From contig JAIPBH010000001.1 in the NCBI GenBank assembly GCA_021739635.1, positions 355,209 through 419,208 on the forward strand: DNA of 64,000 bases. The letters run 5' to 3'. The DNA comes from Flavobacteriaceae bacterium. Its GTDB lineage: Bacteria; Bacteroidota; Bacteroidia; Flavobacteriales; Flavobacteriaceae. Shown here one piece after another: positions 9,069-25,702 of this stretch (its first letter is position 1; each line of letters begins with the position of its first letter). The position numbers and the translations under genes are program-made. Below the pieces are notes generated by a model. That model saw nothing but the letters and a program-made list of their open reading frames with translations, did no database searches and was not told the origin of the DNA.

Positions 9069-10466
9069 ATGAAAAATATAAAATTTATGCATTCAAAAAC
9101 AGCACTGCTTTTAGGGTTGCTTTTTTTTACAATTGTTAGTTGTGAAAGAGACGCTTCTAATCAGTTAGAGTTTGCTACATACTCAAGCAATGGAGAAGTC
9201 TTTATAGATGGTTTTTCTGGAGGATTAGATTACTATCCTTTTTTAGGTTCTTATTTAGAAGCTTTTAGTGTAGATACTGAAACAAAATATAAAGGAAGTT
9301 CAGCTATGCGTTTTGACGTGCCTAATGTTGGTGATCCAAACGGAGCTTATGCTGGCGCTATTTTCCGAGTAGATTCACCGCGTGATTTAACGGGTTATGA
9401 TGCCTTAACTTTTTGGGCAAAAGGAACTAGAGGAGGACTAATTAATGAAATTGGTTTTGGTCAAGATTTCTTTGAAAATAAATTTCAAGTTAGTATGAGT
9501 CTTCAATTAACTACTAATTGGAGAAAATATGTGATTCCAATTCCAGATCCAGCAAAATTAGTACAAGAAAGAGGTATGTTCTGGTTTGCTGAAGGGCCTG
9601 AAAATAATGAAGGTTATACGTTTTGGATAGATGAACTTCAATTTGAAAAATTAGGCACCATAGCTCAGCCACAACCAGCTATTTCAAATGGCGTAGATAA
9701 ATCTGATTCTGGTTTTACCGGTGTTGATATGCCGGTAACTGGTTTAACACAAACATTTAATCTAGAATCAGGAAACAATATAACGGTTAATGCGGCTCCT
9801 TCATATTTTAATTTTAACTCTTCAAATGAAGATGTTGCTTTTGTTAATGAATTAGGAATTGTTTCGGTCTTGTCTGAAGGTACAGCTAAAATAACAGCAA
9901 CCTTAGGTGGTGTTTCTGCAAAGGGGTCATTAGAATTAACTTCAGTTGGAGCCTTTGATTTTGCTCCAATTCCAACCAGACCAGCTAGTAATGTTACTTC
10001 TATCTTTAGTGATTCATATACCAATTCACCAGTTGATTTTTTTAATGGATATTGGGAACCTTATCAAACAACACAATCAACAGAGTTTGCAATTGATGGA
10101 AATAACATGATAAGCTATACCGATTTTAATTTTGTTGGTAATCAATTTGCAAACCCAACTGTTAATGCAACTGTAAAATCAAATTTACACATTAACATGT
10201 ACATTCCTAATAGTGTACCTGCAGACATGGACTTTTTAATTACGGTTGTTGATTTTGGTGCTGACCAAGCTGATGGTGGAGGTGATGATACAAGACAGCA
10301 AGTGTTTTTTGATAAATCTCTTTGGGTTCCTAATACATGGATTACATTAGAATTCCCTATAACAATGGATAACAAAAACAATATTGGACTTATTATTTAT
10401 GAGAATATTAATTTCTCATCACTAAGTAATTGGTATTTAGATAATGTTTATTTCTATAGTGAGTAA
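9069..10466 (+). CDS. Surface glycan-binding-like lipoprotein with Big_2-type domain
   Basis: The start at 9069, 13 bases after the previous stop, gives a lipoprotein signal ending in FTIVSC (Cys 25); a longer frame from 8997 overlaps the previous gene and is rejected. The 465-residue protein has a jelly-roll carbohydrate-binding-like region at about 40-200 with the segment LTFWAKG, an Ig-like Big_2 domain at about 220-292, and a C-terminal module from about 308 beginning SIFSDSYTN and ending in YLDNVYFYSE. A similar module occurs twice in the secreted protein at 26183. No catalytic motif is seen. By position between the barrel fusion and GH16 it probably binds beta-glucan at the cell surface, doing the job of SusE/SGBP proteins; this is inference. 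Confidence 0.7.
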   Translation: MKNIKFMHSKTALLLGLLFFTIVSCERDASNQLEFATYSSNGEVFIDGFSGGLDYYPFLGSYLEAFSVDTETKYKGSSAMRFDVPNVGDPNGAYAGAIFRVDSPRDLTGYDALTFWAKGTRGGLINEIGFGQDFFENKFQVSMSLQLTTNWRKYVIPIPDPAKLVQERGMFWFAEGPENNEGYTFWIDELQFEKLGTIAQPQPAISNGVDKSDSGFTGVDMPVTGLTQTFNLESGNNITVNAAPSYFNFNSSNEDVAFVNELGIVSVLSEGTAKITATLGGVSAKGSLELTSVGAFDFAPIPTRPASNVTSIFSDSYTNSPVDFFNGYWEPYQTTQSTEFAIDGNNMISYTDFNFVGNQFANPTVNATVKSNLHINMYIPNSVPADMDFLITVVDFGADQADGGGDDTRQQVFFDKSLWVPNTWITLEFPITMDNKNNIGLIIYENINFSSLSNWYLDNVYFYSE

Positions 10467-10494
10467 TACTGGATTTAGATTAAAAAATAATACT

Positions 10495-11376
10495 ATGAAT
10501 TCAAAAAATATAATAAGAATGAAAACAAAAATCTTTAAGCAAAATCCATTATATAGAGTAGCTAATGAATCATTAGTTATTCTCTGTCTTGCATTTTTAT
10601 TTACACTATTCATTAGTTGTTCAACTAGTGAGACGCAAACTGTTGCAAAGTTTAAAACTATAACTATGCAAGATGAATTTGATATTGATGGTCAACCAAA
10701 TAGTTTAATTTGGACCTATGACATTGGAGGTAATGGTTGGGGAAACAATGAATTGCAATTCTATACAAATAGATCAAATAATGTAACTGTTCAAAATGGA
10801 TATTTACTTATAACTGCAGAAAAAGAAAATTTTGAAGGAGCGTCTTATACGTCTTCAAGAATCTTGACTAAAGGCTTATTTGAGCAAAAGTATGGTCGTT
10901 TTGAAGCACGTATAAAATTGCCATGGGGTCAAGGTTTATGGCCTGCCTTTTGGTTGTTAGGAAGTGATATTGATGATGTTCAATGGCCAAATTGTGGAGA
11001 AATTGATATTATGGAAAATCGTGGGCAAGAGCCAACTTTAATTAGTGGTACTGTACATGGACCAGGGTATTCTGGAGGGGAATCAATAACAAAAAGTTAT
11101 AGTTTGACAAATGACAGATTTGATACAGATTTTCACATTTTTGGTATAGAATGGGCACCAGATTATATAAACTACTATGTTGATGATGTTTTATATAATC
11201 AAATAACTCCAGCCGATGTTACTGGTGAATGGGTTTTTAATAAACCATTTTTTATCATAATAAATCTTGCAGTTGGAGGAAATTATGTAGGCTCACCAAA
11301 TACTGAAACTGTGTTCCCTCAAACTATGCTTGTAGACTACGTTCGTGTGTATAAAGCAGATATAATTAATAACTAA
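10495..11376 (+). CDS. GH16 endo-beta-1,3-glucanase (laminarinase), lipoprotein
   Basis: GH16 enzymes cut internal bonds of beta-1,3 or mixed-linkage glucans with retention. The protein is a single catalytic domain after a lipoprotein signal (hydrophobic run ending LFISC). The family motif EIDIME is present at about residues 169-174, with Glu 169 the expected nucleophile and Glu 174 the acid/base; the extra Met in the motif is the beta-bulge form typical of laminarinases. Other hallmarks are SSRILTKGLF, ARIKLPWGQGLWPAFW and a C-terminal VDYVRVY. The start at 10495 is preferred because it follows the previous stop by 28 bases; ATG at 10519 is also possible, while the frame from 10444 overlaps the previous gene. 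Probably surface-exposed, producing oligosaccharides for uptake. Confidence 0.92.
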   Translation: MNSKNIIRMKTKIFKQNPLYRVANESLVILCLAFLFTLFISCSTSETQTVAKFKTITMQDEFDIDGQPNSLIWTYDIGGNGWGNNELQFYTNRSNNVTVQNGYLLITAEKENFEGASYTSSRILTKGLFEQKYGRFEARIKLPWGQGLWPAFWLLGSDIDDVQWPNCGEIDIMENRGQEPTLISGTVHGPGYSGGESITKSYSLTNDRFDTDFHIFGIEWAPDYINYYVDDVLYNQITPADVTGEWVFNKPFFIIINLAVGGNYVGSPNTETVFPQTMLVDYVRVYKADIINN

Positions 11377-11392
11377 ACTAAAAAAAAATATT

Positions 11393-13366
11393 ATGAAACT
11401 AATACAAAAAACAATACAGATAATCTCAATTATTGTTCTCTCTATGGGCTTCTTAGGTTGTCAAGAGGATGAAAAAGAATTTCCTACTGCATTTGCTGAA
11501 TTTACATATACAGTAAATCAGGAAACGGGTGTAGTAAAATTTATAAATACATCAAGAAATGCAACTATTTTTACTTGGTCTTTTGGGGACCAAACAAGTT
11601 CAACTGAGGTAAATCCATCACATATTTATCAACCTGGAACTTATTTAGTCTCTTTAGTTGCAAAAAATATTGCAGGATCTTTTAGAACATACCAAGATAC
11701 CATAATAATTGGAGGAGATAATAATAATGGCGGCGGCGGTTCAGCTGATTGTACAGCTGAAGCTTCAGAAAATATTGATCCAGCTAATGGTGATTTAAAT
11801 TGGACTTTTAAAACAAATGATAGTGCTCATACCTTTGAGGCTTTTGGTAATACTGCAGGATCAATTGTAGATAACCCAGTAGTTGATGATGTAAATTCTA
11901 GTTGTTATGTGGAACAATTTGTAAAAGCATCTGGATGTGAAACTTGGTCAGGTTTAGGAAATGAATTAGCTACTGCTATAGATTTCACTTCTTCTTCTAC
12001 TAATAAAGTGTTTAAAATGAAAGTTTTAGCTGAAAATCAATCTGCAGATGTTACTTTAAGGCTAGAGCGTTTACCTTATCCAGATACAGATCCAGCTGTT
12101 GAGAGAGTTGCTAGTGTAACAACAGTTGGTGCATGGCAAGAATTAACTTTTGATTTTTCTGATGTTACAACAGGAACTTATAAAAGTATGATATTGTACT
12201 TTGAAAGAAATGCTTCATGTGATGGTGATATTTATTATTTTGATGATATTATGCAAGTTGAATCAACTGGCGGAGGAGGCGGTATAACTGATTGTACAGC
12301 TGAAGCTTCAGAAAATATTGATCCAGCTAATGGAGATTTAAATTGGACTTTTAAAACTAATGATGTAAATCATACTTTTGAAGCTTTTGGTAATACAGCA
12401 GGTTCAATTGTAGATAATCCAGTTTTAGATGCTGTAAACTCTAGTTGTAATGTTGAACAATTTGTAAAAGCATCTGGTTGTGAAACTTGGTCTGGTTTAG
12501 GATTTGCGTTGGCTACTGCTATAGATTTTACTTCTGCAACTACAAATAAAGCATTTACAATGAAGGTCTTAGCTGAAAATCAAATTGCTGATGTTACTTT
12601 AAGGTTAGAACGCTTACCTTATCCAGATACAGACCCAGCTATAGAAAGAGTTGCTAGTATAACTCAGGTTGGTGCATGGCAAGAATTAACATTTGATTTT
12701 TCAGATATATCAACAGGAACTTATAAAAGTATGATATTATACTTTGAGAGAAATGCATCATGTGATGGAGATATTTATTATTTTGATGATATTATTCAAG
12801 TTGCTGGTACCGGAGGATCTGGTGGTGGTGGAACTGGAGGTACTGGTGGTGGATGTACTGGAACAGCTGTTGCAGCAACTGCATTTCCAGTAAACTTTGA
12901 AACTTGTGAATCTTTTATTAGCACTTTTACGGATGGAGGTAGTATTACAACTACTTTAGATGATAATCCTTCAAAAGCAGGCATAAACACTTCAGATTTT
13001 GTATTAAGAGTAGATAAAGCTTCAGGAACAAATAGATGGGCAGGATTTCAAAATCCATTCCCAAGCAATTTTGATGCAACAAAAACATTTAAAGTTAAGA
13101 TTTACTCAACTAGAGCAAATGTAGTTATGAGATTTGAAGTAAATAGCGATCCACAACCAAATAGTTCCGGAAATCCTGGGCCACAGTTTGCAACCATAGT
13201 GAATGCTAATACTTGGACAGAAGTTCAAATTGTATTTACTGGAATTCCTGCAAATAATACGGGTCTTAACCAATTTGTTATTAAACCTGACAACCCAGAT
13301 GGTACTGATGGTACAACAACTAGCGGTGATGCTACATATTATTTTGATGATATTAGATTGGAATAA
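11393..13366 (+). CDS. PKD-domain lipoprotein with tandem carbohydrate-binding-like modules
   Basis: The 657-residue protein starts with a lipoprotein signal (SMGFLGC) and a PKD domain at about 33-105 (segment FTWSFGDQ). Three beta-sandwich modules follow: two nearly identical ones at about 119-289 and 300-470, and a more distant third at about 485-657. Each ends in YYFDDI, and glycine-rich linkers separate them. No catalytic residues are recognised. The architecture, with flexible linkers and repeated modules, suits a surface glycan-binding protein displayed away from the membrane. It is the last gene before a terminator, 16 bases after GH16. Binding to beta-1,3-glucan is inferred only from context. 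Confidence 0.72.
   Translation: MKLIQKTIQIISIIVLSMGFLGCQEDEKEFPTAFAEFTYTVNQETGVVKFINTSRNATIFTWSFGDQTSSTEVNPSHIYQPGTYLVSLVAKNIAGSFRTYQDTIIIGGDNNNGGGGSADCTAEASENIDPANGDLNWTFKTNDSAHTFEAFGNTAGSIVDNPVVDDVNSSCYVEQFVKASGCETWSGLGNELATAIDFTSSSTNKVFKMKVLAENQSADVTLRLERLPYPDTDPAVERVASVTTVGAWQELTFDFSDVTTGTYKSMILYFERNASCDGDIYYFDDIMQVESTGGGGGITDCTAEASENIDPANGDLNWTFKTNDVNHTFEAFGNTAGSIVDNPVLDAVNSSCNVEQFVKASGCETWSGLGFALATAIDFTSATTNKAFTMKVLAENQIADVTLRLERLPYPDTDPAIERVASITQVGAWQELTFDFSDISTGTYKSMILYFERNASCDGDIYYFDDIIQVAGTGGSGGGGTGGTGGGCTGTAVAATAFPVNFETCESFISTFTDGGSITTTLDDNPSKAGINTSDFVLRVDKASGTNRWAGFQNPFPSNFDATKTFKVKIYSTRANVVMRFEVNSDPQPNSSGNPGPQFATIVNANTWTEVQIVFTGIPANNTGLNQFVIKPDNPDGTDGTTTSGDATYYFDDIRLE
11747..12803 (+). 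repeat. Two tandem copies of a module-coding sequence, period 543 bases
   Basis: The segments 11747-12260 and 12290-12803 are offset by exactly 543 bases and encode nearly the same 171-residue module, each opening DCTAEASENIDPANG. Differences are spread mainly over silent and conservative positions, which points to a duplication that is not very recent but is kept under selection or homogenised. Confidence 0.85.
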
Positions 13367-13565: not shown

Positions 13566-15068
13566 ATGTTGTTTTTAAAACGAATTTTATTTCAATCACA
13601 ATTAATTATTTGCATTTTGTGTATCAGTTGTAATTCAGAAAAAAAAATAGATATTGTGGATAATGTTCAGCAAGTTAATAACTTAGATATCTCTAGTATG
13701 AAAACTGAGGTTTATAAATCAGCTCATGATACCATTTTAAAACTTTCTTTTGTGGGATCAATTACTTTTGAATCCTTAAAACAACCAAAAGAAACTGATG
13801 CCTCTATTGTTGTTGATCCAAGCAAACAATTTCAAACGTTTTTAGGAATTGGAGCGGCTTTGACCGATGCTTCAGCTGAAACGTTTTTTAAACTATCTAA
13901 AGACAATCAGGATAAGTTTATTGAAGCTTATTTTGACAAGGAAAAAGGTATTGGTTATTCTTTAGCTAGAACCCATATTCATAGTTGTGATTTTTCAAGT
14001 CACAGTTACACTTATATTGAAGAAGGTGATTCAGAATTAAATACATTCAGTATTGACCATGACAAAACCTTTAGAATTCCGTTTACTAAAAAGGCTATTG
14101 AAGCAGCTGGAGGAACATTAACCATGTACGCAAGCCCGTGGAGTCCACCAGCCTTCATGAAAACCAATAACAACATACTTCAAGGTGGAAAATTGAAACC
14201 TGAGTTTTACCAATCATGGGCAAACTATTATGCTAAATTTATAAAAGCATATGAGCAAGAAGGCATTCCAATTTGGGGGCTAACCGTTCAAAACGAACCT
14301 ATGGCAGTACAACGATGGGAATCGTGTATTTACACAGCAGAAGATGAGCGTGACTTTGTTAAGAATTATTTAGGCCCAACACTAGAAAAAGAAGGCTTAG
14401 GCGATAAAAACCTTATTGTTTGGGACCACAATAGAGATTTGATGTTTCAAAGAGCTAATGTCATATTAAATGATCCAGAAGCTGCAAAATATGTTTGGGG
14501 AACAGGATTTCATTGGTATGAAGACTGGAAAGATGGTATGCCTATGTTTAACGCTGTAAAGCAAGTGCAAGAAGCCTATCCTGATAAAAATTTAATTTTC
14601 ACAGAAGGCTGTAATGAAAAATATGATGTTACAAGAATAGAAACTGAAGACCCAAAATTAGCAGAACGTTACGGAAAATCAATGATAAATGATTTTAATA
14701 ATGGCACAGTTGCTTGGACAGATTGGAATATTCTTCTGGATGAAACAGGTGGTCCTAATCACGTTGGTAATTTCTGTTTTTCACCCGTTCATGGCAATAC
14801 ACAAACTGATGAATTAACCTTTACTAATTCTTATTATTACATAGGTCATTTCTCTAAATTCATTCGTCCTGGAGCAAAAAGAATATCAAGTGCATCAAGT
14901 TCAAATAATTTATTAAGTACAGCATTTACCAATACTGATGGTAGTTTAGTTATTGTTGTTTTAAATCAAGGAGAAAGAGAATTGGATTTTACACTTTCTA
15001 TTGCATCTAAATCAGCTCATTTAAACGCATTACCACACTCCATTCAAACCGTAGTTTTAAAACAATAA
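13566..15068 (+). CDS. GH30 glycosidase lipoprotein (likely beta-1,6-glucanase or beta-glucosidase)
   Basis: GH30 enzymes are retaining clan GH-A glycosidases; members in laminarin loci remove beta-1,6 branches. This 500-residue protein has a lipoprotein signal ending CILCISC, a segment FLGIGAALTDASAETF typical of the start of the GH30 catalytic domain, the acid/base in TVQNEPM (Glu 244) and the nucleophile in FTEGCNE (Glu 347). A short beta-domain forms the C-terminus, with the first strand of the GH30 side domain near the N-terminus. It begins the second transcription block, 199 bases after the previous gene, and is followed after 13 bases by a sugar transporter. The family is certain; the exact linkage is inferred from the surrounding beta-1,3-glucan enzymes. 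Confidence 0.88.
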   Translation: MLFLKRILFQSQLIICILCISCNSEKKIDIVDNVQQVNNLDISSMKTEVYKSAHDTILKLSFVGSITFESLKQPKETDASIVVDPSKQFQTFLGIGAALTDASAETFFKLSKDNQDKFIEAYFDKEKGIGYSLARTHIHSCDFSSHSYTYIEEGDSELNTFSIDHDKTFRIPFTKKAIEAAGGTLTMYASPWSPPAFMKTNNNILQGGKLKPEFYQSWANYYAKFIKAYEQEGIPIWGLTVQNEPMAVQRWESCIYTAEDERDFVKNYLGPTLEKEGLGDKNLIVWDHNRDLMFQRANVILNDPEAAKYVWGTGFHWYEDWKDGMPMFNAVKQVQEAYPDKNLIFTEGCNEKYDVTRIETEDPKLAERYGKSMINDFNNGTVAWTDWNILLDETGGPNHVGNFCFSPVHGNTQTDELTFTNSYYYIGHFSKFIRPGAKRISSASSSNNLLSTAFTNTDGSLVIVVLNQGERELDFTLSIASKSAHLNALPHSIQTVVLKQ

Positions 15069-15081
15069 AAATTAACTTATT

Positions 15082-16620
15082 ATGTCCAGAAAACTACTAC
15101 TTATAGCTTTTGTTGTTTCATTAGGAGGTTTTTTATTTGGCTTTGATGCTGGAATTATTTCAGGTGTTATGTCTTATGCTGGACCTGAATTTGATTTAAA
15201 TGAAACACAAGTTGGTTGGGTAGTAAGTTCTCCATCTTTTGCTGCTATGATTGCTATGTTGTTTTCTGGCAGACTAAGTGATATAATAGGAAGAAAAAAA
15301 ATATTATTAGTGGTTGCTTTTTTATATGCCGTTTCAGCATTGTTTTCGGCCTATGCAACGTCATATGAAATGCTTTATATAGCACGAATGATCGGTGGTT
15401 TAGCCTTTGGGGCAGCACTTATTTTAGCACCCATGTATATAGCCGAAGTATCTACAGCCAAAAACAGAGGCAAGTTGGTAGCAATTCAGCAATTAAATAT
15501 TGTTCTTGGATTTTTTGCTGCTTTTTTGAGTAATTATTTTTTTAATAAATACAATACACCAAACAGCAGTTTTTTAAATGATAATAATGTTTGGCGCTGG
15601 ATGCTAGGTGTTGAACTACTTCCTGCTATATTATATTTTATAGCTTTATTTTTTGTTCCCAGAAGTCCACGTTGGCTTTACTTAAAAAGTAAATTTGATG
15701 AAGCTAAAAAAGTACTAAATTCTATCCATGGAGACTTAACAGGTCACCAAGAAATTGAATCTATAGAAAAAAACATACATGCAGAAAAAAACACATCAAA
15801 AGTGGTTTTTAAAGATTTATTTAAAAAGTCTTTACGTTTCATTCTTATAGTAGGACTTGTAGTTGGTGTACTTCAGCAAATTACAGGTATTAATGCTGTA
15901 TATTTTTACGCCACTTCAATTTTTAAACAAACAGGAATTGGTACAGACGCTTCGTTTTCATCAGGCGTTTTATTAAGCACCATAACAGTTATTTTTACGT
16001 TTGTTGCGATGTACTTAATTGACAGAATGGGAAGAAGACCATTGTTGTTGGTGGGAACTGCAGGAATTGCACTAAGTTTATTGTTGTGTGCATATGGTTT
16101 TAAACAGGCCAAATATGAGTTGACTTCAGAAGATATTTCAAATTTTCAATTTTCACAAGCTAGTATGTTGTCCCCTTTGGCTAATCAGGTTTTTGAGAAT
16201 GATGTTGATTTTAAAAATGCTATGAAATTAGCTTTAGGAAATCAGGTTTATAGTAAAAACGATGGTGTCATTTTAGAAGCTGCCACCACTATGAATGCTA
16301 ATTTGGTTTTAATAGGTATTTTAGGCTTTATCGCTTGTTTTGCATTTTCATTAGGTCCAGTTATGTGGGTTTTACTCTCTGAGCTATATCCTATTAAATA
16401 TAGAGGTCTAGCCATTGGAGTTATTGCCTTTATAAACTCATTTATCAGTTCTGTTATCCAATTAATTTTCCCATGGGAATTATCAAATCTAGGAAATGCT
16501 ATGAGTTTTTTCCTTTTTGGAGCTACTGCTCTTGTTGGGTTTTTTATATTATTAAGAATATTACCAGAAACTAAGGGGAAATCATTAGAACAAATTGAAA
16601 ATGAATTTGTTAAAAATTAA
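15082..16620 (+). CDS. Sugar porter family MFS transporter
   Basis: This 512-residue inner-membrane protein has the twelve-helix plan of the sugar porter (SP) family. Seen motifs are GFLFGFDAGIISG at the first helix, GRLSDIIGRKK between helices 2 and 3, SPRWLYLK in the central loop, LQQITGINAVYFYA at helix 7, DRMGRRPLL between helices 8 and 9, and PETKGKSLEQIE at the end. Such proteins import hexoses or pentoses with protons. An unusual stretch of about 55 hydrophilic residues (about 347-402) is inserted before helix 10. It lies 13 bases after GH30 and 13 before the phosphorylase gene, so it most likely imports glucose or a short gluco-oligosaccharide released by the locus. Confidence 0.88.
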   Translation: MSRKLLLIAFVVSLGGFLFGFDAGIISGVMSYAGPEFDLNETQVGWVVSSPSFAAMIAMLFSGRLSDIIGRKKILLVVAFLYAVSALFSAYATSYEMLYIARMIGGLAFGAALILAPMYIAEVSTAKNRGKLVAIQQLNIVLGFFAAFLSNYFFNKYNTPNSSFLNDNNVWRWMLGVELLPAILYFIALFFVPRSPRWLYLKSKFDEAKKVLNSIHGDLTGHQEIESIEKNIHAEKNTSKVVFKDLFKKSLRFILIVGLVVGVLQQITGINAVYFYATSIFKQTGIGTDASFSSGVLLSTITVIFTFVAMYLIDRMGRRPLLLVGTAGIALSLLLCAYGFKQAKYELTSEDISNFQFSQASMLSPLANQVFENDVDFKNAMKLALGNQVYSKNDGVILEAATTMNANLVLIGILGFIACFAFSLGPVMWVLLSELYPIKYRGLAIGVIAFINSFISSVIQLIFPWELSNLGNAMSFFLFGATALVGFFILLRILPETKGKSLEQIENEFVKN

Positions 16621-16633
16621 AATTATATAATTA

Positions 16634-19600
16634 ATGAGTGTTAAAGATATGTATATCGGTAATATAAAACTACAAACAACCGATAAAGAGATAACTGGAG
16701 AAATGGTTCAGTTTGAAAATGAAAATTATTATAAAATTTCTAATTCAGGTGAAATGCGTCCTTTTTTTATGAGCATTGTTAGTGACTCTAATCACTGGAT
16801 GTTTATATCAAGTAATGGAGGCTTATCTGCTGGAAGAAAAAACTCTGAATCTTCCTTGTTCCCTTATTATACAGACGATAAAATTACGGAATCTGCTGAA
16901 ATTACAGGAAGTAAGACCATCATGCATATTTTTAAAGATGGAAAAACTTACTTATGGGAACCCTTTTCAAACAGAAATCAAGGTGTTTACAGTATTACCA
17001 GAAATCTTTATAAAAATATCTATGGAAATAAAGTAGTATTTGAAGAAATTAATCATGATTTAAAAGTATCATTTAGATATCAGTGGAACTCAAGTGATGA
17101 TTATGGATTTGTAAAAAAATCTACTCTCGTGAATCTGGATTCGTCTCAAACTAGCATCACAGTTTTAGATGGTTTGCAGAATATATTGCCATCAGGTGTT
17201 AATTCTGCTTTGCAAAATGCTAGCAGTAATTTGGTAGATGCATATAAGAAATGTGAATTAGAAAGTGATTCAGGCATTGGAGTTTTTGCATTGAGCGCAT
17301 TTATTGTAGATAAAGCAGAACCAAGCGAAGCTTTAAAGGCTAACATTGTATGGTCTTTAGGGAATGATAATCCAACCTACTTACTGTCATCATTACAACT
17401 TAATAATTTCAGACAAGGAAAAACACTTACCAATGAAGTTGATATTAAAGCTGAAAAGGGAGCTTATTTTACTTGTTGCAATATTGAGTTGAATGCCCAG
17501 TCTGAAAAACAATGGATGACTATTGCCAATGTAAATCAATCTATAAGTGGAGTCAGTTATATTTCAAACTTAATTAAAACCGAATCTAATTTAGAAAAAC
17601 TGGTTCAAGATGATATTGACAAAGGAACTTCTAATTTAATTAAGTTGGTCGGATCTTCAGATGGATTACAAAAAACAGAAGATTCTTTAACAAACACTAG
17701 ACATTTTGCAAACACGCTTTTTAACATTATGCGTGGTGGTATTTTTGATGATGATTATAATATAGAAAAGCAAGATTTCATCAAATACATTGCAAATGCA
17801 AATAAAAAAGTTTTAAAGAAAAAAGAAGAAATACTTCAAGATCTACCAGAAAATTTTGATTTAAAATTTTTGAAAGACCTTGCTGAAAATGATGACGATA
17901 AAAATTTTAAACGTCTTTGCTTTGAATATTTACCATTAAAATTTAGCAGACGTCATGGTGATCCAAGCAGACCTTGGAATAGGTTTTCAATTAATACCAG
18001 AAGCGAAATTGACGGTTCTAAAATTTTAGATTATGAAGGTAACTGGCGTGATATTTTCCAAAATTGGGAAGCACTAGTACATTCATATCCTGAGTTTATT
18101 GAAAGTATGATTCATAAGTTTTTAAATGCAACTACATTTGAAGGCTATAATCCGTACAGAGTTACAAAAGGAGGTTTTGATTGGGAAGTAATTGAAGAAG
18201 ATGATCCATGGTCTTACATTGGGTATTGGGGAGACCACCAAATTATCTACTTATTAAAGTTTTTGGAATTTATTGAAAATTATTATCCAAATCGTTTAGA
18301 AAGCCAATTTAATAAAGACCTTTTTGTTTATGCCAATGTGCCATACAAAATTAAGAGCTATCAAGATATTGTTATTAATCCAAAAGACACTATTGATTTT
18401 GACTATCATTTAAATGAAGAGATTTTTAAAAAGAAAGCAGAACTTGGTGCTGATGGTTCATTGTTAAGAGATAAAAATTTCTTTATTTATAAAGTTAATT
18501 TAATTGAAAAATTATTGGCTACAGTTTTAGCAAAAGTGTCAAACTTTATTCCAGAAGGTGGTATATGGTTAAATACACAACGCCCAGAATGGAATGATGC
18601 CAATAATGCTTTAGTAGGAAATGGCGTATCCATGGTTACATTGTACTACTTACGCAGATTTTTGAATTTCTTTGAAGGCATCGTTTCCAAGGCAGATACT
18701 AATCAAATTGAATTGTCTGAAGAACTCGTTGTATTTTTCAATAGAGTAGTAAAAGCCCTAAATAAAAATCAATCTATTCTTTCAGGAAAGGTTTCTAATA
18801 AAGATAGAAAAACGGTCTTAGATGAATTAGGAATTGCAGGAAGTGACTATAGATTAAAAATTTATAAAGAAGGATTTGTAGGGAATAAAGAGTCTATCAG
18901 CAAATCTGATATTTTAAGTTTTATAACAATTACCTTAAAATATCTTGACCATAGTATAGAAGCCAATAAAAGAGCAGATAAATTGTATCACGCTTACAAC
19001 ATCATGACCATTGATAAAGATGAGGTTTCAATTTCATATTTACCTGTCATGTTAGAAGGACAAGTTTCAGCCTTGAGTTCTGGTTATTTGTCACCAAAAG
19101 AAGCTTTAGACTTGCTGGATGGTTTAAAAAGCAGTGCATTGTTCAGACCAGATCAATACAGTTATATTTTATATCCAAACAAAGAATTGCCAAGATTTGA
19201 TAAAAAGAACAATATTTCTGCAGCAAAGTTTGAAAAATCAGAATTACTAAAGCAACTGGTAAAAGAAGGCAATGCACAAATTGTAGAAAAAGATGTGTTA
19301 GGTAATTATCATTTTAGCGGAAGTTTTCATAACGCAAATAGTTTAAAGGATGCTTTAGCAGGTTTGCCAGAGGAAACGTATCAGTCACTAATTAAAAAAG
19401 ACAGTAAATATTTACTAGATCTTTTTGAAGAAACATTTGATCATAAATCATTCACTGGTCGATCCGGAACCTTTTTCGGTTATGAAGGTTTGGGGTCAAT
19501 TTACTGGCATATGGTTTCCAAACTATTATTAGCTGTTCAAGAGAACTGTTTATTAGCTGTAAATACAAATGAAAGCGATGTTATTATTGGTAAGTTATTA

Positions 19601-20092
19601 GACCATTACTATGAAATTGAAGCCGGTATTGGCGTTCATAAATCACCAGAATTATATGGTGCATTTCCAACAGATCCATATTCACACACACCAGGAAATA
19701 AAGGTGCTCAACAACCAGGAATGACTGGTCAGGTTAAGGAAGATATTTTAAGCAGAATTGGTGAATTAGGTGTTTTTGTAGAGAAGGGATCAATATATTT
19801 CAAACCGAGATTGTTAAGAAAAAGTGAGTATTTAAAAGGTTTCAGCAACTTTGAATATACAGATGTTAACAAACAAAAACGAGTCATAGAATTAGAAAAA
19901 AACTCACTCTGTTTTGCATATTGCCAAATACCTGTTATATATAAATTAAGTCATCAAGATGGACTTAAAGTTTTATATAATGATGGTCAAGAAGTTGATT
20001 TTGAAAGTTTAAAGCTTGACAAAGCAACAAGCAAAAAGATGTTTGAAAGAACAGGAGAGATTCAACAAATAATCGCTTTTATAAAGTCATAA
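16634..20092 (+). CDS. GH149-like beta-1,3-oligoglucan phosphorylase
   Basis: The 1152-residue protein has no signal peptide and so is cytoplasmic. Its size and its (alpha/alpha)6-type catalytic segment match family GH149, a relative of GH94 that phosphorolyses beta-1,3-glucan chains to glucose 1-phosphate. The segment RPEWNDANNALVGNG holds the likely catalytic Asp 655, and DPWSYIGYWGDHQIIYLLKF before it is another conserved helical stretch of the family; the N-terminal third is the usual beta-sandwich domain. Bacterial GH149 enzymes have been reported in loci with GH16, GH17 and GH30, as here. The product would enter glycolysis through phosphoglucomutase with saving of one ATP. GH94 or GH161 are the alternatives; length and motif favour GH149. 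Confidence 0.78.
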   Translation: MSVKDMYIGNIKLQTTDKEITGEMVQFENENYYKISNSGEMRPFFMSIVSDSNHWMFISSNGGLSAGRKNSESSLFPYYTDDKITESAEITGSKTIMHIFKDGKTYLWEPFSNRNQGVYSITRNLYKNIYGNKVVFEEINHDLKVSFRYQWNSSDDYGFVKKSTLVNLDSSQTSITVLDGLQNILPSGVNSALQNASSNLVDAYKKCELESDSGIGVFALSAFIVDKAEPSEALKANIVWSLGNDNPTYLLSSLQLNNFRQGKTLTNEVDIKAEKGAYFTCCNIELNAQSEKQWMTIANVNQSISGVSYISNLIKTESNLEKLVQDDIDKGTSNLIKLVGSSDGLQKTEDSLTNTRHFANTLFNIMRGGIFDDDYNIEKQDFIKYIANANKKVLKKKEEILQDLPENFDLKFLKDLAENDDDKNFKRLCFEYLPLKFSRRHGDPSRPWNRFSINTRSEIDGSKILDYEGNWRDIFQNWEALVHSYPEFIESMIHKFLNATTFEGYNPYRVTKGGFDWEVIEEDDPWSYIGYWGDHQIIYLLKFLEFIENYYPNRLESQFNKDLFVYANVPYKIKSYQDIVINPKDTIDFDYHLNEEIFKKKAELGADGSLLRDKNFFIYKVNLIEKLLATVLAKVSNFIPEGGIWLNTQRPEWNDANNALVGNGVSMVTLYYLRRFLNFFEGIVSKADTNQIELSEELVVFFNRVVKALNKNQSILSGKVSNKDRKTVLDELGIAGSDYRLKIYKEGFVGNKESISKSDILSFITITLKYLDHSIEANKRADKLYHAYNIMTIDKDEVSISYLPVMLEGQVSALSSGYLSPKEALDLLDGLKSSALFRPDQYSYILYPNKELPRFDKKNNISAAKFEKSELLKQLVKEGNAQIVEKDVLGNYHFSGSFHNANSLKDALAGLPEETYQSLIKKDSKYLLDLFEETFDHKSFTGRSGTFFGYEGLGSIYWHMVSKLLLAVQENCLLAVNTNESDVIIGKLLDHYYEIEAGIGVHKSPELYGAFPTDPYSHTPGNKGAQQPGMTGQVKEDILSRIGELGVFVEKGSIYFKPRLLRKSEYLKGFSNFEYTDVNKQKRVIELEKNSLCFAYCQIPVIYKLSHQDGLKVLYNDGQEVDFESLKLDKATSKKMFERTGEIQQIIAFIKS

Positions 20093-20118: not shown

Positions 20119-21366
20119 ATGATTTCGATAAGACCTGTAATATTATGTTTTTTCTTCATGATTATCTTGTTTTCGTGTGCAGTTAAACCAAAAGAAAAAA
20201 TGCCGAAAACTGCATCTGAAATTTTAGGAAATCCCAATTATTTAGCTATTTCTTATGGCGGTTACCGGTATCAGGATCATAGCATTGAACCTACATTGCA
20301 AGAGCTAAAAGATGATATGAAACTCCTCCATGCTTTAGGGATTAGAATCGTTAGAACCTATAAAGTACATAAACCACAAGCTGAAAATCTTTTAAAAGCC
20401 ATAAGCGAATTAAAAAAGCAGGACCCAAGCTTTGAAATGTATGTCATGCTAGGAGCTTGGATTGATTGTAAAAATGCTTGGACAGACCAAGAGCCTATTC
20501 ATGATATAGAAAGTGAGGCCAACAAACCTCAAATGGAAAAAGTTGTGGCATTGGCCAATCAATATCCAGATATCGTAAAGGTAATTGCTGTGGGTAATGA
20601 AGCTATGGTAAAATGGGCAGCGAGTTACTATGTAGAGCCATATATTATTCTAAAATGGGTTAATTATCTTCAAGATTTAAAGGAAAAAGGAGAATTATCG
20701 AAAGATTTGTGGGTAACAAGTTCAGATAATTTTGCATCTTGGGGCGGTGGCGGACCAGAATACCACGTAAACGATTTAAACAAATTAATTAAAGCGGTAG
20801 ATTTTCTTTCCGTTCATACCTATCCTATGCACGACACGCATTATCAGCCAGATTTTTGGTTAAATCCAGAAGGGTTGGAGGGCAAAACCGATATGGAAAA
20901 GATTGAAATTTTAATGTTGAGAGCAAAGAAATATGCTATGATGCAGTACGAAAATGTAAAGAAATACATGGAAAGTCTTGGTGTTAGTAAACCAATTCAT
21001 ATTGGAGAGACAGGATGGGCTAGTATGTCTTCAGGATTTTATGGAGCTGACGGATCAAAAGCCTGCGATGAGTATAAAGAAGCTCTTTATTACAAACACA
21101 TGAGAGATTGGACTAACGAAGCGGGAATGTCTTGTTTTTATTTTGAAGGATTTGACGAACCCTGGAAAGGTGGCGATAATACTGGGAATTCTGAAAAGCA
21201 TTTTGGATTATTCACCGTAGAAGGAAAAGCAAAATATGTACTTTGGAATATGGTTGATAAAGGTGTCTTTAAAGGTTTAACCAGAAACGGAAACCCAATA
21301 ATTAAAACATATAATGGAGATAAAAACACCTTAATGAAGGATGTTTTATTACTACCAATAAAATAA
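20119..21366 (+). CDS. GH17 beta-1,3-glucanase-like lipoprotein
   Basis: GH17 enzymes are retaining clan GH-A beta-1,3-glucan hydrolases or transglycosylases. The 415-residue protein carries a lipoprotein signal (MIILFSC), so it acts outside the cytoplasm, unlike the later GH17 proteins of this locus. The catalytic pair is visible as AVGNEAM (acid/base Glu 161) and IGETGWAS (nucleophile Glu 297). A long segment between, with VHTYPMHD, matches the family. It follows the phosphorylase after 26 bases and precedes the transporter fusion after 75. Likely role: cutting imported laminari-oligosaccharides in the periplasm to a size that the inner-membrane transporters accept. Confidence 0.85.
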   Translation: MISIRPVILCFFFMIILFSCAVKPKEKMPKTASEILGNPNYLAISYGGYRYQDHSIEPTLQELKDDMKLLHALGIRIVRTYKVHKPQAENLLKAISELKKQDPSFEMYVMLGAWIDCKNAWTDQEPIHDIESEANKPQMEKVVALANQYPDIVKVIAVGNEAMVKWAASYYVEPYIILKWVNYLQDLKEKGELSKDLWVTSSDNFASWGGGGPEYHVNDLNKLIKAVDFLSVHTYPMHDTHYQPDFWLNPEGLEGKTDMEKIEILMLRAKKYAMMQYENVKKYMESLGVSKPIHIGETGWASMSSGFYGADGSKACDEYKEALYYKHMRDWTNEAGMSCFYFEGFDEPWKGGDNTGNSEKHFGLFTVEGKAKYVLWNMVDKGVFKGLTRNGNPIIKTYNGDKNTLMKDVLLLPIK

Positions 21367-21441: not shown

Positions 21442-23811
21442 ATGTCAAACAACAAAACAATTTCTAAACATAAGGTGCCAATGGGTCAGAAAATAGCCTT
21501 TGGTTTAGGTATGTTAGCCAATCAAATGTTTCCTGCTGCCCTAGGGATTTTTATGGTTGTTCTTGTACAAAATTTAGGTTTTCCAACCTGGATGTGGGGA
21601 ATTTTATTTTTCTTACCTCGTGTATTCGACTCCATTACTGATCCTATTATGGGGTTTATTTCAGACAATACAAAATCTGTTTGGGGAAGACGAAGACATT
21701 ATGTGTTTATAGGGGCTATTATCATGGGTATTTCATTTTCATTAATGTGGCAATTGTATAAAGTAGATGGGATATCTTATAATTTCACATATTTCCTATT
21801 ATGGTCACTAGTATTTTATTTAGGTCTTACCATTTTTAGCGTGCCTTATGTAGCTATGGGATATGAAATGAGTGACGATTTTCATGAGCGTACAAGTATT
21901 ATGGCTATTGCACAATGGATAGGACAATGGGCTTGGGTAATTGCACCTTGGTTTTGGGTGGTTATGTATGATCCTTCTTGGTTTGAAAGTGCAGATGTTG
22001 CTACAAGAACGCTGGCTATATGGGTAGGAGTTATTTGTGCAATTTTAGCCATGATTCCATCTATATTTATTACAAGTAAATCTACTAAAAATGATAGCAG
22101 TCTAACTCCTTTAACCCTTAAAACTATAGGAAGCAGTATGAAGGGAATTATTATTGGCTTTAAAGAAGCTTTTGGGTATGAAGAGTTTAGAAAATTATGT
22201 TTTTCTACATTTTTAATTTTTAATGCTTTTAATACGGTTGCAGGTTTTTCTTTCTTTATTGTTGTTTATTATTTATTTAATGGTGATACGGCTAGTGCAG
22301 GAATTTGGCCTACGCTTTTAGGAAGTGTTGGGGCATTAGCAACTACATTTATAGTAATACCAATTGTTGCATGGATGTCTAAAAAAATGGGTAAAAAGAA
22401 TGCTTTTTTACTGTCTCAAGGGATATCTGTGATTGGTTATTTAATGCTTTGGTTTTTATTTATTCCAGGAAAACCATATATGTTTTTGTTTGCCTTACCT
22501 TTTTTCTCTTTCGGTATTGGAAGTTTATTTACTCTTATGATGTCTATGACTGCAGATGTTTGTGATATTGATGAATTGGCAACAGGTAAAAGACGAGAAG
22601 GTATTTTTGGAGCTATTTACTGGTGGATGGTAAAGTTTGGCTTTGCTGTTGCAGGATTGCTAACTGGTGCTATCATGACTTTAGTAGGGTTTGTTCCTGA
22701 TGCCGTAAATTCAGAGGCTTCAATTACTGGTTTAAGATTATTTTATTCAGGTTTACCTATAGTTGGAACTCTTGCAGCTATGTTTATTATGCGTAATTAT
22801 GATTTAACAGAAGAAAGAGCCAATCAAATTACTAAAGAATTACAAAAAAGAAAAGCATTTAAACCTTCTGGTTATGCTAATATGAAGTTGCTTTCTGAAA
22901 TTGATATTGATACTGTTTCTGAAAAAGAACTAAAAGAAAAATTCCCACAACTTTTCTCTACTAAATTAGATTTTTCTTCCTTATCAAATCAAGATATTCA
23001 AACAGAGTTTACCAATGTGTTTCAAAAAGGCATGTCTGGTATTTGTTTTAGTGCTTATAAAAGTGGGCAAGAACCTGGCGACTTGATTACTGAAGAGCAA
23101 ATACGAAAAAGATTAGAAGTTCTTAAACCACATACACAATGGATAAGGGTTTTTTCATGTACAAGCGGACATGAAAAAATCCCAAAAATCGCTAAAGAAA
23201 TGGGATTAAAAACCATGGTAGGTGCATGGTTGGATAACGACATTGAGAAGAATCATTTGGAAATTCAAGCCCTGATAAAATTAATTAAAGAAGATCTTGT
23301 GGATGTTGCCGCAGTTGGAAATGAAGTGCTTTACAGAGGTGAATTAAATGAAGATACTATTATAAATTATATTAACCAGATTAAAAAAGCATCAAAAAGT
23401 ATACCAGTTGGCTATGTAGATGCTTATTATGAATTTACCAACAGACCTAAATTAGTAGCGGCATGTGATGTTGTTCTTGTAAACTGTTATCCGTTTTGGG
23501 AAGGTGCTGATATAAAAATTTCAGGATTCTATCTTCAGAAAATGTATCGTAAAACAGTAGAAGCTGCTCAAGGTAAAAAGGTTATTATTGCAGAAACAGG
23601 TTGGCCTAGTAAGGGTGAAATAACTGGTGCAGCTGAGCCTTCAAAAGTTAATGTAATGACTTATTATATTAAAGCGCAATTATGGGCTGAAAATGAAAAC
23701 GTGGACGTATTTTATTTCTCCTCATTTGATGAGTCATGGAAAATACATTCAGAAGGATGGGCAGGAACCTCTTGGGGTTTATGGGATACCAATGAAAATT
23801 TTAAATATTAA
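21442..23811 (+). CDS. GPH-family sugar:cation symporter fused to a cytoplasmic GH17 domain
   Basis: The first 450 residues are a complete twelve-helix GPH (glycoside-pentoside-hexuronide) transporter with the family signature FDSITDPIMGFISD followed by GRRRHYV, and CDIDELATGKRREG late in the domain. After a charged linker (about 456-525) comes a GH17 domain from about 528 to 789 with AVGNEVLYRG (acid/base Glu 628) and IAETGWPSKG (nucleophile Glu 718). The single frame is open throughout with no stop or repeat at the junction, so this is a real fusion. Both ends of GPH proteins are cytoplasmic, which places the GH17 domain on the inner face of the membrane. Its GH17 part closely resembles the next gene's product. 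I infer import coupled to immediate hydrolysis or transfer. Confidence 0.88.
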   Translation: MSNNKTISKHKVPMGQKIAFGLGMLANQMFPAALGIFMVVLVQNLGFPTWMWGILFFLPRVFDSITDPIMGFISDNTKSVWGRRRHYVFIGAIIMGISFSLMWQLYKVDGISYNFTYFLLWSLVFYLGLTIFSVPYVAMGYEMSDDFHERTSIMAIAQWIGQWAWVIAPWFWVVMYDPSWFESADVATRTLAIWVGVICAILAMIPSIFITSKSTKNDSSLTPLTLKTIGSSMKGIIIGFKEAFGYEEFRKLCFSTFLIFNAFNTVAGFSFFIVVYYLFNGDTASAGIWPTLLGSVGALATTFIVIPIVAWMSKKMGKKNAFLLSQGISVIGYLMLWFLFIPGKPYMFLFALPFFSFGIGSLFTLMMSMTADVCDIDELATGKRREGIFGAIYWWMVKFGFAVAGLLTGAIMTLVGFVPDAVNSEASITGLRLFYSGLPIVGTLAAMFIMRNYDLTEERANQITKELQKRKAFKPSGYANMKLLSEIDIDTVSEKELKEKFPQLFSTKLDFSSLSNQDIQTEFTNVFQKGMSGICFSAYKSGQEPGDLITEEQIRKRLEVLKPHTQWIRVFSCTSGHEKIPKIAKEMGLKTMVGAWLDNDIEKNHLEIQALIKLIKEDLVDVAAVGNEVLYRGELNEDTIINYINQIKKASKSIPVGYVDAYYEFTNRPKLVAACDVVLVNCYPFWEGADIKISGFYLQKMYRKTVEAAQGKKVIIAETGWPSKGEITGAAEPSKVNVMTYYIKAQLWAENENVDVFYFSSFDESWKIHSEGWAGTSWGLWDTNENFKY

Positions 23812-23835: not shown

Positions 23836-24744
23836 ATGTCATATAGAAGAGAATATCATTCTACCATAGAAGGCACAGATTACAAAGAAAATGTTGGAGT
23901 TAACTTTAGTAAACTTTCAACAAAAAAATTAGAAAATCTTTGGAGAGAAACTCTAGAAAAAGGCATGCATGGCTTATGTTTTAGCATGTATGAAGATGGT
24001 CAAAAACCTGGCGATATTATTACAGAAGCGCAGGTAGTAAGAAGAATGAAAATTATAAAACCCTATACAAAATGGGTGCGCTCTTTTTCTTGTGTTGAGG
24101 GCAACGAACATATTCCCAGAGTTGCACATAAACATGGTCTTAAAACATTAGTAGGTGCGTGGTTGGGAGATGATCTTGAAATGAATGAAGCAGAAATTGA
24201 AGGTCTTATCGTATTAGCAAAAGAAGGTTGTGTAGATATTGCCGCTGTAGGTAATGAAGTGATGTATAGAAAAGATTTAACAGAAGACCAATTATTAGAA
24301 TACATCAATCGTGTTAAAGAAGCCTTGCCAGGTATTCCTGTTGGGTATGTTGATGCTTATTATGAGTTTTCACACAGACCAAGAATAACAGAAGCTTGTG
24401 ATGTTATTTTAGCCAATTGTTATCCATATTGGGAAGGATGTAGTATAGAATATTCTTTAAACCATATGCAACAAATGTATTATCAGGCTTTAGATGCAGG
24501 ACGTGGTAAAAAAGTGATTATTACTGAAACTGGTTGGCCAAGTGAAGGTGGAAGTTTAAGAGGTGCCGTATCATCTGCAGAAAATGCCATAAAATATTTT
24601 ATTAATTCTCAAGTTTGGTCATCTAAAAGTAATATTGACATGTTTTATTTTTCATCATTTGATGAGTCATGGAAAGTTGGTGCCGAAGGTGATGTAGGAG
24701 CATATTGGGGACTTTGGGATAAACATGAAAAACTAAAATTTTAA
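23836..24744 (+). CDS. Cytoplasmic GH17 enzyme, paralogue of the fused domain
   Basis: This 302-residue protein has no signal peptide or membrane segment. It aligns over its length with the C-terminal part of the preceding transporter fusion, sharing segments such as GYVDAYYEF, RVFSC/RSFSC, and FYFSSFDESWK. The catalytic residues are seen as AVGNEVMYR (Glu 141) and ITETGWPSEG (Glu 231). It lies 25 bases after the fusion gene. The pair probably arose by tandem duplication with one copy joined to the transporter. Role: hydrolysis or transglycosylation of imported beta-1,3-gluco-oligosaccharides in the cytoplasm, alongside the phosphorylase. Confidence 0.85.
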   Translation: MSYRREYHSTIEGTDYKENVGVNFSKLSTKKLENLWRETLEKGMHGLCFSMYEDGQKPGDIITEAQVVRRMKIIKPYTKWVRSFSCVEGNEHIPRVAHKHGLKTLVGAWLGDDLEMNEAEIEGLIVLAKEGCVDIAAVGNEVMYRKDLTEDQLLEYINRVKEALPGIPVGYVDAYYEFSHRPRITEACDVILANCYPYWEGCSIEYSLNHMQQMYYQALDAGRGKKVIITETGWPSEGGSLRGAVSSAENAIKYFINSQVWSSKSNIDMFYFSSFDESWKVGAEGDVGAYWGLWDKHEKLKF

Positions 24745-24769: not shown

Positions 24770-25702
24770 ATGAACTTAACCAAGAAATTAAACCTTCCTT
24801 TTGCCAATGCTATTTGCTATTCAGGCTTTAGAGAAGGTCAACAACCTGGAGGAATTGTTCCAAATTATGAAGAGATTAAAGAAGATCTTTTAATACTTCA
24901 AGGACAATGGAAGTATTTACGTCTTTATGATTGCGATAAACACGCAGAAATTGTTTTAGATGTTATAGAAAAAGAAGGTTTTGATTTTAAAATCATGCTT
25001 GGTGCTTACATCGTAGCTGAAATGAATAACTTTGGTTGTCCATGGGGCGGAACTCATAGTAAAGAACAACTCGAAAAAAATGTAGAAATAAACATTAAAC
25101 AGATTGATAAACTTATAGTGTTAGCTAATAGATATCCTGATATTATAATTGCTTTATCAGCAGGAAACGAAGCTTGTGTAGATTGGACAGACCATTATGT
25201 GCCGGTTAAAAGCGTTATTTCATATGTAAAACGCATTAAAAAAGGGGCTAAACAACCTGTAACTTTTTGTGAAAATTATGTGCCTTGGTTAGACAAGTTA
25301 AAAGATTTAGTTAAAGAAATAGATTTTATTTCCATTCATACCTATCCAGTTTGGGAATATAAACACATACACGATGCATTAGAATACACTAAAGATAATT
25401 ATTATGCAGTGGCAAATAAATATCCAAATGTACCTGTAGTTATTACTGAAGCTGGTTGGGCAACTAATTCAAACGGTAGAGGTATTGATCCACAAAATGT
25501 GAGCGAAGAAAATCAAGAGATATATTATCATGATTTGGTAAATTGGAGTCAAAAAGAAGACATACTCACGTTTGTTTTTGAAGCTTTTGATGAACCTTGG
25601 AAAGGCTCACCAGAACCCTTAGAACCAGAAAAACATTGGGGATTATTTAAAGTTGATAGAACACCTAAATTGGTTATGAGAGAACTATACGCTAACAAAT
25701 AA
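24770..25702 (+). CDS. Cytoplasmic GH17-like enzyme, divergent paralogue
   Basis: This 310-residue protein starts at an ATG 25 bases after the previous stop and has no export signal. GH17-type catalytic segments are SAGNEACVDW (Glu 134) and ITEAGWATNS (Glu 227); the usual ETGW is EAGW here. Its pattern is nearer to the lipoprotein GH17 at 20119 (shared ISIHTYPVWE/SVHTYPMHD, FEAFDEPWKG) than to the gene just before, so two GH17 subgroups coexist in the locus. It is the last gene before a strong terminator. Likely substrate: short beta-1,3-gluco-oligosaccharides. Differences in the two groups may reflect different chain length or hydrolysis versus transfer. Confidence 0.82.
   Translation: MNLTKKLNLPFANAICYSGFREGQQPGGIVPNYEEIKEDLLILQGQWKYLRLYDCDKHAEIVLDVIEKEGFDFKIMLGAYIVAEMNNFGCPWGGTHSKEQLEKNVEINIKQIDKLIVLANRYPDIIIALSAGNEACVDWTDHYVPVKSVISYVKRIKKGAKQPVTFCENYVPWLDKLKDLVKEIDFISIHTYPVWEYKHIHDALEYTKDNYYAVANKYPNVPVVITEAGWATNSNGRGIDPQNVSEENQEIYYHDLVNWSQKEDILTFVFEAFDEPWKGSPEPLEPEKHWGLFKVDRTPKLVMRELYANK

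Follow-up and report, generated by a model that had tools for sequence, protein, structure and literature searches.

Why should a bacterium build a sugar transporter and a sugar-processing enzyme as one protein, and do the two parts then stay together? The question is raised by a gene at 21442..23811 (+) in a stretch of 64,000 nucleotides, hereafter the window, from a Flavobacteriaceae bacterium (assembly GCA_021739635.1, contig JAIPBH010000001.1, positions 355,209 to 419,208 of the forward strand). Its 789-amino-acid product joins a GPH (MFS_2) symporter to a GH17 domain predicted to be cytoplasmic, on the evidence of open reading frame (ORF) analysis, Pfam, AlphaFold2 and Foldseek. A preliminary description of the sequence considered this an unusual route for oligosaccharide capture, a view that the literature has overtaken. 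The architecture was published by Unfried et al. in 2018 (PMC6246565), who assayed it as FbGH17B (FORMB_24740), an MFS-GH17 fusion of Formosa sp. Hel1_33_131, and the accessible text of a 2023 study (PMC10108472) describes it as widespread.

Laminarin is one of the sea's large carbon flows. According to the accessible text of PMC6246565, FbGH17B acts on debranched laminarin, yields glucose and is an exo-beta-1,3-glucosidase; a link between import and cleavage was put forward in 2018, and we found no test of it in the published literature. According to the accessible text of PMC10108472, 'variant 1' laminarin loci were expressed in 11 of the 15 bacteroidetal and 7 of the 18 gammaproteobacterial metagenome-assembled genomes (MAGs) that were active; most of the expressed loci had at least one GH17-MFS fusion, and loci of this type were highly expressed in a diatom bloom. 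FbGH17B, the sole assayed transporter-GH17 fusion in the literature found, has been interpreted as a single mechanism that combines import with exo-hydrolysis.

Here we describe two types of fused GH17 tail, F1 and F2, and comparisons which show that similar transporters have repeatedly swapped these tails. The protein itself is likely an inner-membrane, MelB-like GPH symporter for laminari-oligosaccharides, with a GH17 enzyme tethered at its cytoplasmic exit that processes what is imported. As far as we found, the two tail types, their exchange, the old origin of the paralogue next door and the F2 fusions of Burkholderiales are new relative to the literature; neither the types nor their exchange came up in the accessible main texts on such loci.

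An intact gene for a symporter and an enzyme

The frame opens with ATG and runs through 789 codons with zero internal stops. Residues 1-471 (21442..22854 (+)) form the MelB-like transporter part, in which 12 long helices are followed by a short tail helix (457-471), as delimited by PF13347, the MelB alignment, AlphaFold2 and Foldseek. A linker of F1 type (residues about 472-510, 22855..22971 (+)), drawn from the alignment and the predicted local distance difference test (pLDDT) scores, marks where the histories of transporter and tail part. The GH17 catalytic domain, of tail type F1, occupies residues 516-789 (22987..23808 (+); trees, phmmer, AlphaFold2 and Foldseek). A complete symporter and a complete GH17 domain in one frame, as first described, are thus borne out by the ORF, Pfam, phmmer and the AlphaFold2 model.

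An assembly or sequencing error could have joined two adjacent genes, and split adjacent genes are common among relatives. However, the frame is equally unbroken in relatives at 91 % identity (loci L035 and L157, probably one genome present in two collections) and at 85 % (Yeosuana marina, L006/L036), and in comparison with them transporter, linker and GH17 all show ratios of nonsynonymous to synonymous substitution rates (dN/dS) within 0.04-0.14. The fusion gene is under purifying selection, with low dN/dS across the junction, and a hidden stop, about which the preliminary description was concerned, or a frameshift is therefore very unlikely. With 77 fusions among the best 80 of 454 stretches described below, independent genomes already contradict an artefact, whose probability we regard as negligible. 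Still longer fusions, suggested by open frames of about 1020-1140 amino acids in the family sample, were rejected, as the four loci translated hold separate genes.

Fold and predicted topology

The MFS_2 model PF13347 matches residues 20-457 with 212 bits, and a sequence search against solved structures aligns MelB with residues 12-463; the alignment used for single residues below covers 12-460. Foldseek places the transporter part with MelB, a melibiose:cation symporter (PDB 9old, 7l16, 4m64), at a best template modelling score (TM-score) of 0.84, normalised by target length, and 17-19 % identity. The AlphaFold2 model, whose input alignment held 74 locus-derived fusions out of 86 rows picked, has a mean pLDDT of 85.5. 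It shows helices through residue 471 and then, beyond a low-confidence stretch (residues 473-483, pLDDT <50), the TIM barrel of GH17; the model and Foldseek reveal zero extra transmembrane helices between the last transporter helix and GH17. A simple hydropathy scan picked 10 helices, missing two of the transporter, and all windows in the tail fell below its threshold of 1.3. The MelB fold, the 12 long helices and the lack of an added membrane helix before GH17 support the earlier proposal that the enzyme lies on the cytoplasmic face, a side predicted by homology to MelB.

MelB has a pair of aspartates at its cation site, and Asp19 and Asp124 at its sugar site. Asp63 and Asp67 of the fusion align with the cation-site pair and Lys398 with Lys377, while Asp124 is replaced by Ser133 and Asp19 by Gln28. 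The fusion is therefore like MelB in its fold and its cation-site aspartates, and differs from it in these sugar-site residues and in carrying an enzyme tail, which MelB lacks. We infer that it performs cation-coupled sugar transport, with a putative substrate and a putative coupling cation.

The same topology is familiar from the GPH transporter LacS, which has a cytosolic EIIA domain at its C-terminus, although a narrow literature search for this precedent returned nothing. By analogy with EIIA, GH17 could be a regulatory domain, one that senses internal oligosaccharide and controls transport. We consider such a regulatory fusion very unlikely: the catalytic residues are invariant in 101/101 fused rows, and FbGH17B is an active enzyme by the accessible text of PMC6246565.

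The GH17 tail and its active site

The PF00332 (Glyco_hydro_17) match, which at 36 bits exceeds its cut-off of 28.2, spans just residues 713-789. The domain is nevertheless complete, since phmmer matched RmBgt17A (4wtp) over tail residues 528-771 and Foldseek aligned the tail to RmBgt17A (4wtr) with a TM-score of 0.87 (target length) at 28-29 % identity. RmBgt17A (PDB 4wtp/4wtr/4wts), a GH17 glucanosyltransferase of Rhizomucor miehei, is the nearest solved structure to the tail by sequence and fold; unlike the tail, it is fungal and free-standing. Both catalytic glutamates are present as first described: Glu628 (VGNE; 23323..23325 (+)) as the predicted acid/base and Glu718 (AETGW; 23593..23595 (+)) as the predicted nucleophile, each kept in all 101 fused rows.

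The tail also holds all three acceptor residues of GH17 glucanosyltransferases. By alignment, Tyr631 (23332..23334 (+)) corresponds to Tyr136 of MlGH17B and Tyr102 of RmBgt17A, the acceptor platform, and Trp686-Glu687 (23497..23502 (+)) to Trp191-Glu192 of MlGH17B. In the accessible text of PMC11005184, Tyr136, Trp191 and Glu192 of MlGH17B, a beta-1,3-glucanosyltransglycosylase of Muricauda lutaonensis, are named as acceptor residues, alanine replacement of the equivalent residues in RmBgt17A abolished transfer, and FbGH17B carries Met at the position of Tyr136. MlGH17B differs from the window protein in not being fused, and resembles its tail in the spacing of Tyr, Trp, Glu and nucleophile at +3, +58, +59 and +90 from the acid/base. 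The nucleophile is printed there both as Glu223 and as Glu233; the +90 spacing fits Glu223.

Two types of tail

The GH17 domains of the fetched loci form a set of 366: 101 fused tails, 127 free-standing neighbours ('free'), 53 of a further type ('c') and 85 secreted. Copies of the window (L001-L005) were dropped before all counts, as were GH17 rows below 80 bits or 220 aligned residues. Rows include duplicates from genomes present in two collections, the distinct sequences numbering 20 of 24 for F1, 74 of 77 for F2 and 121 of 127 for free copies. A careful tree was built from 85 of the 366 rows (24 F1, 31 of 77 F2, 26 of 127 free, 4 of 53 c and no secreted).

Judged by these trees, the fused tails split into two types, F1, which includes the window, and F2, which includes FbGH17B. 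Support in the careful tree is 95/91 for the F1 clade and 99/99 for the free clade; the F2 grouping is weak there (41/5) and receives 94 and 96 in two FastTrees. The linkers are type-specific in alignment, and no free-type tail occurs among the 101 fused rows of this main set. Within the catalytic domain, residue 631 is the sole column at which F1 and F2 share no amino acid, one further such column lying in the F1 linker. The 24 F1 rows have Tyr (17) or Phe (7) at this position, the 77 F2 rows Leu (61), His (7), Met (5) or Gln (4), and the 127 free copies Tyr (101) or Leu (26). Among distinct sequences, Tyr or Phe is found in 20/20 F1 and 0/74 F2. As F1 forms one clade, this marker is a single clade-level difference and no repeated convergence. 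The accessible text of PMC10108472 mentions neither tail types nor the acceptor residue nor tail exchange for its variant 1 loci, which likewise carry GH17-MFS fusions.

The comparison with FbGH17B depends on identifying its genome. We take the structure 6FCG to be FbGH17A. PMC6246565 states that GH17A was crystallised. In one genome of our sample (G123) the protein two genes upstream of the fusion is identical to 6FCG over 430/430 residues and the gene order GH17A-GH30-fusion agrees with the published locus tags, so that G123 is the Formosa genome and its fusion FbGH17B. The window protein fits the FbGH17B-type description, an N-terminal MFS and a C-terminal GH17 in one frame within a laminarin locus. 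Both proteins have the same order of parts, share the same kind of locus (GH149, GH17A, GH30, fusion and free GH17 in G123) and are 64 % identical overall. They differ in the tail, which is only 54 % identical and of type F2 in FbGH17B, with Met for Tyr631 and a different linker; in addition, the window has no GH30 between its GH17A-type gene and the fusion. Because one tail is F1 and the other F2, the window tail may differ from FbGH17B in its balance of transfer and hydrolysis.

With the full set of transfer residues retained in the F1 tail, a glucanosyltransferase role is a live rival or addition to hydrolysis. In this case the tail would mainly rejoin or elongate imports as they leave the transporter, and the longer or kinked chains so formed would be trapped. 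The residues concerned match those whose alanine replacement abolished transfer in RmBgt17A (accessible text of PMC11005184), itself a glucanosyltransferase and the closest solved structure by sequence, and Tyr or Phe at 631 separates F1 (24/24 rows) from F2 (0/77). Against this, Trp and Glu are equally kept in F2 (77/77), Phe rather than Tyr occupies the position in 7 of the 24 F1 rows, and a single residue, changed once at the level of a clade, is no proof of activity. Tyr is also present in 101 of the 127 free copies, so transfer may be their job; and MlGH17B reportedly needs donors with a degree of polymerisation (DP) of at least 4, which is the upper end of the DP2-4 products left by MlGH17A. 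Our search of the published literature found no assay of any F1 tail. We regard a mainly transferring tail as quite possible, though somewhat less than an even prospect.

Exchange of tails between transporters

Transporter and tail trees strongly disagree. On a careful transporter tree of 92 of the 132 rows, the F1 type requires a minimum of 9 changes, of which well-supported branches force 6, versus one on the GH17 tree, and vertical inheritance of the fusion as a unit from a single origin was rejected. Approximately unbiased (AU) tests likewise rejected a single clade of F1 transporters (p 0.00016 for all 24 rows; 8.9e-67 for 23 rows, without L123) and a single clade of the transporters of the window pair with L006, L036 and L049 (p 0.00039). 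The change of history can be seen in individual pairs. Between genomes G215 (F1) and G102 (F2), the transporters are 93 % and the tails 51 % identical, with identity dropping at about residue 470; the window and the F2 fusion of L048 share 87 % of their transporter and 54 % of their tail. The disagreement of the trees and the breakpoint at the junction show repeated exchange of tails between similar transporters. Exchange is recurrent but not constant, since an F2 transporter is the single nearest by identity for just 4 of the 24 F1 rows (8 of the 24 being pairs of identical duplicates).

Diversity of this kind extends into the genus of the window. Three of its seven genomes carry the F1 fusion (the window's own, G322 and G679), one (G680) an F2 fusion, assigned by best match (73 % to F2 versus 54 % to F1), and two (G133 and G681) an unfused transporter, 48 % identical, adjoining a free GH17; the seventh (G678) has no match at the threshold used. 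In a second transporter lineage, 41-52 % identical to that of the window, 14 of 16 rows are unfused, and one F1 and one F2 fusion stand on long branches. L148 (G435), at 2884-5343 (-), encodes an 820-amino-acid fusion whose GH17 tail lies inside the free-standing clade; it is an independent and apparently later fusion event.

Ease of exchange also suits a tail that serves only as a tether or expression device, the enzyme working independently and the fusion fixing a 1:1 ratio or a membrane location. A flexible linker, the many unfused adjacent relatives and the interchange of tails are all easily explained without specific contact between the domains. Type-specific linkers argue the other way, as does the scarcity of free-type tails (0/101 fused rows of the main set and 1/8 in the phylum sample below). 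We hold this reading to be conceivable but less than even in probability.

Bolder still is the reading of the symporter as a chassis with interchangeable tails, in which F2 tails would hydrolyse and F1 tails transfer, so that imports are elongated or branched and thereby trapped, lineages having changed from one mode to the other many times through recombination at the junction. We think it unlikely; if true, it would mean vectorial trapping by chain growth. Should tails of two catalytic types indeed replace each other on similar transporters, the swap experiment would already exist in nature, and pairs such as G215 and G102 would make it possible to study the contribution of a tethered enzyme to a symporter and which of hydrolysis and transfer is favoured by selection.

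The neighbouring free-standing GH17 and the origin of the fusion

Directly downstream lies a free-standing GH17 gene (23836..24744 (+); Pfam and trees), without an evident signal peptide by eye. The preliminary description saw in it the origin of the tail by duplication and fusion, which the comparisons do not bear out. It shares only 53 % identity with the window tail but 75 % with the free-standing GH17 next to FbGH17B, and free-standing copies form their own clade (127/127 rows by FastTree; support 99/99 for the 26 rows of the careful tree), apart from F1. The split between tail and neighbour is therefore old, and a recent duplication of the neighbour as the source of the tail was rejected. 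No free-standing domain of F1 or F2 type was found among the 127 free rows or 18 new ones from the phylum sample. AU tests rejected neither a grouping of F1 with F2 (p 0.37) nor one of F2 with free copies (p 0.49), results that would be compatible with one or with two ancestral fusions.

The free-standing gene beside FbGH17B (L155 in G123, 10581-11489) has Tyr at the acceptor position and may be the true counterpart of MlGH17B. FbGH17B is discussed against Muricauda enzymes in the accessible texts of PMC11005184 and PMC13188888; as a distinct gene of free type adjoins the fusion in Formosa, the proteins compared, MlGH17B and FbGH17B, are possibly paralogues. The published MlGH17B primer encodes a C-terminal octapeptide that occurs in 6/127 free, 3/77 F2 and 0/24 F1 rows, which gives no decision between free and F2.

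Distribution across genomes

The preliminary description had proposed a search for the architecture elsewhere, and it proves not to be confined to one strain. In a family sample, at least 25 of 397 genomes, the window's own included, have a full-length match lacking stops; 11 more of the full-length rows listed are interrupted by stops, and all 8 that were fetched from among them proved to be two neighbouring genes. A search of genome contigs, of which the best 80 of 454 stretches were taken, shows breadth and not prevalence. These 80 include 77 single-ORF fusions, 55 from Bacteroidota (16 F1, 39 F2) and 22 from Betaproteobacteria (all F2). None of the 80 comes from the Gammaproteobacteria reported in the literature. 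Burkholderiales carry F2 fusions too, and two of the betaproteobacterial fusion genomes, AAP51 and AAP65, are not labelled MAGs. In six Burkholderiales loci (L078, L080, L081, L084, L085 and L112), the acceptor position is occupied by Leu in fused and free GH17 alike.

A phylum sample of 296 genomes, queried with just the GH17 domain, gave matches in 30. The 20 stretches fetched, from 19 of the 30, contain 8 fused genes (7 F2 and 1 of free type) and 18 free-standing GH17 genes, all in the free clade. Adjacency of unfused transporter and enzyme is not universal: in L116 and L118 (-), a small unknown gene separates the unfused GPH gene from the GH17 downstream. An 894-amino-acid ORF matching GH30 plus secreted GH17 (L062 2815 (+), from a Saprospiraceae MAG) suggests another enzyme fusion.

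A proposed role in laminarin uptake

Returning to the symporter with a tethered processing enzyme, the locus suggests the following scheme. Outside the inner membrane, GH16, GH30 and a lipoprotein-like GH17 would cut laminarin, and the symporter would take up short beta-1,3-gluco-oligosaccharides together with a cation. A flexible linker of about 40 residues would hold GH17 at the cytoplasmic exit, where the tail may act on emerging oligosaccharides and keep free internal substrate low. By removing or converting sugar it would lower the internal concentration opposing a reversible symporter, which could be the benefit of tethering. Products may then pass to a cytosolic GH149 phosphorylase and two free GH17 enzymes; the accessible text of PMC5827456 describes a bacterial GH149 that acts on laminaribiose and longer beta-1,3-oligosaccharides.

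Several observations weigh against this scheme. The TIGR00792 match reaches 191.5 bits, under the curated cut-off of 231.35, yet spans model positions 1-437 of 437. The AlphaFold2 model has a predicted TM-score (pTM) of only 0.61 and does not fix how the tail sits with respect to the transporter. Among solo transporters, a free GH17 lies within -7 to 82 bp in 24 of 31; tethering is not required, given how many relatives encode the two proteins by separate genes side by side. Nor is phosphorolysis by a neighbouring gene constant, since a GH149 match above 100 bits occurs in only 1 of 19 Burkholderiales fusion loci whose fused ORF lies at least 7 kb in. We found no transport assay of any family member in the published literature.

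The surrounding locus

In Bacteroidota, GH149 is present in 44 of 45 fusion loci whose fused ORF begins at least 7 kb into the locus. In the window the GH149 beta-1,3-glucan phosphorylase is encoded at 16634..20092 (+) (NF058639, 1812.8 bits against a cut-off of 1150), followed by a GH17 protein (20119..21366 (+); Pfam and alignment) that has a lipoprotein-like N-terminus by eye and is 66 % identical to FbGH17A (6FCG). This likeness and the constancy of GH149 mark the locus as a laminarin locus. Pairs of SusC and SusD usually mark Bacteroidota loci of this kind; no Pfam match to either was found among the 14 scanned ORFs above 300 amino acids in window positions 1115-27799. In the accessible text of PMC10108472, one variant 1 locus (NS4 clade) also lacks susCD. 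An Orbi_NS3 match in Pfam was below the cut-off and taken as chance.

Upstream, a domain search identified a putative locus regulator with Y_Y_Y, propeller and LuxR-type domains (2818..5622 (+)), and Pfam a weak GH2_C match (from 5891) and a Big_2 protein (from 8997). A GH16 family protein (10444..11376 (+); PF00722) and a PKD protein (from 11393) precede a GH30 protein (13566..15068 (+); Pfam and NCBIfam) with a lipoprotein-like N-terminus by eye. The best NCBIfam match of the latter, endo-1,6-beta-glucanase, scores 261, below the cut-off of 700; at 37 % identity to FbGH30, it belongs to the same family and is not a close counterpart. The second sugar transporter of the locus, of the MFS sugar-porter family, lies at 15082..16620 (+) (PF00083, TIGR00879). 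Downstream of the fusion and its free-standing neighbour follow a third GH17 gene, of the c type (24770..25702 (+); Pfam), 28-29 % identical to the tail and without an evident signal peptide, and a protein sorted by the type IX secretion system (from 26183).

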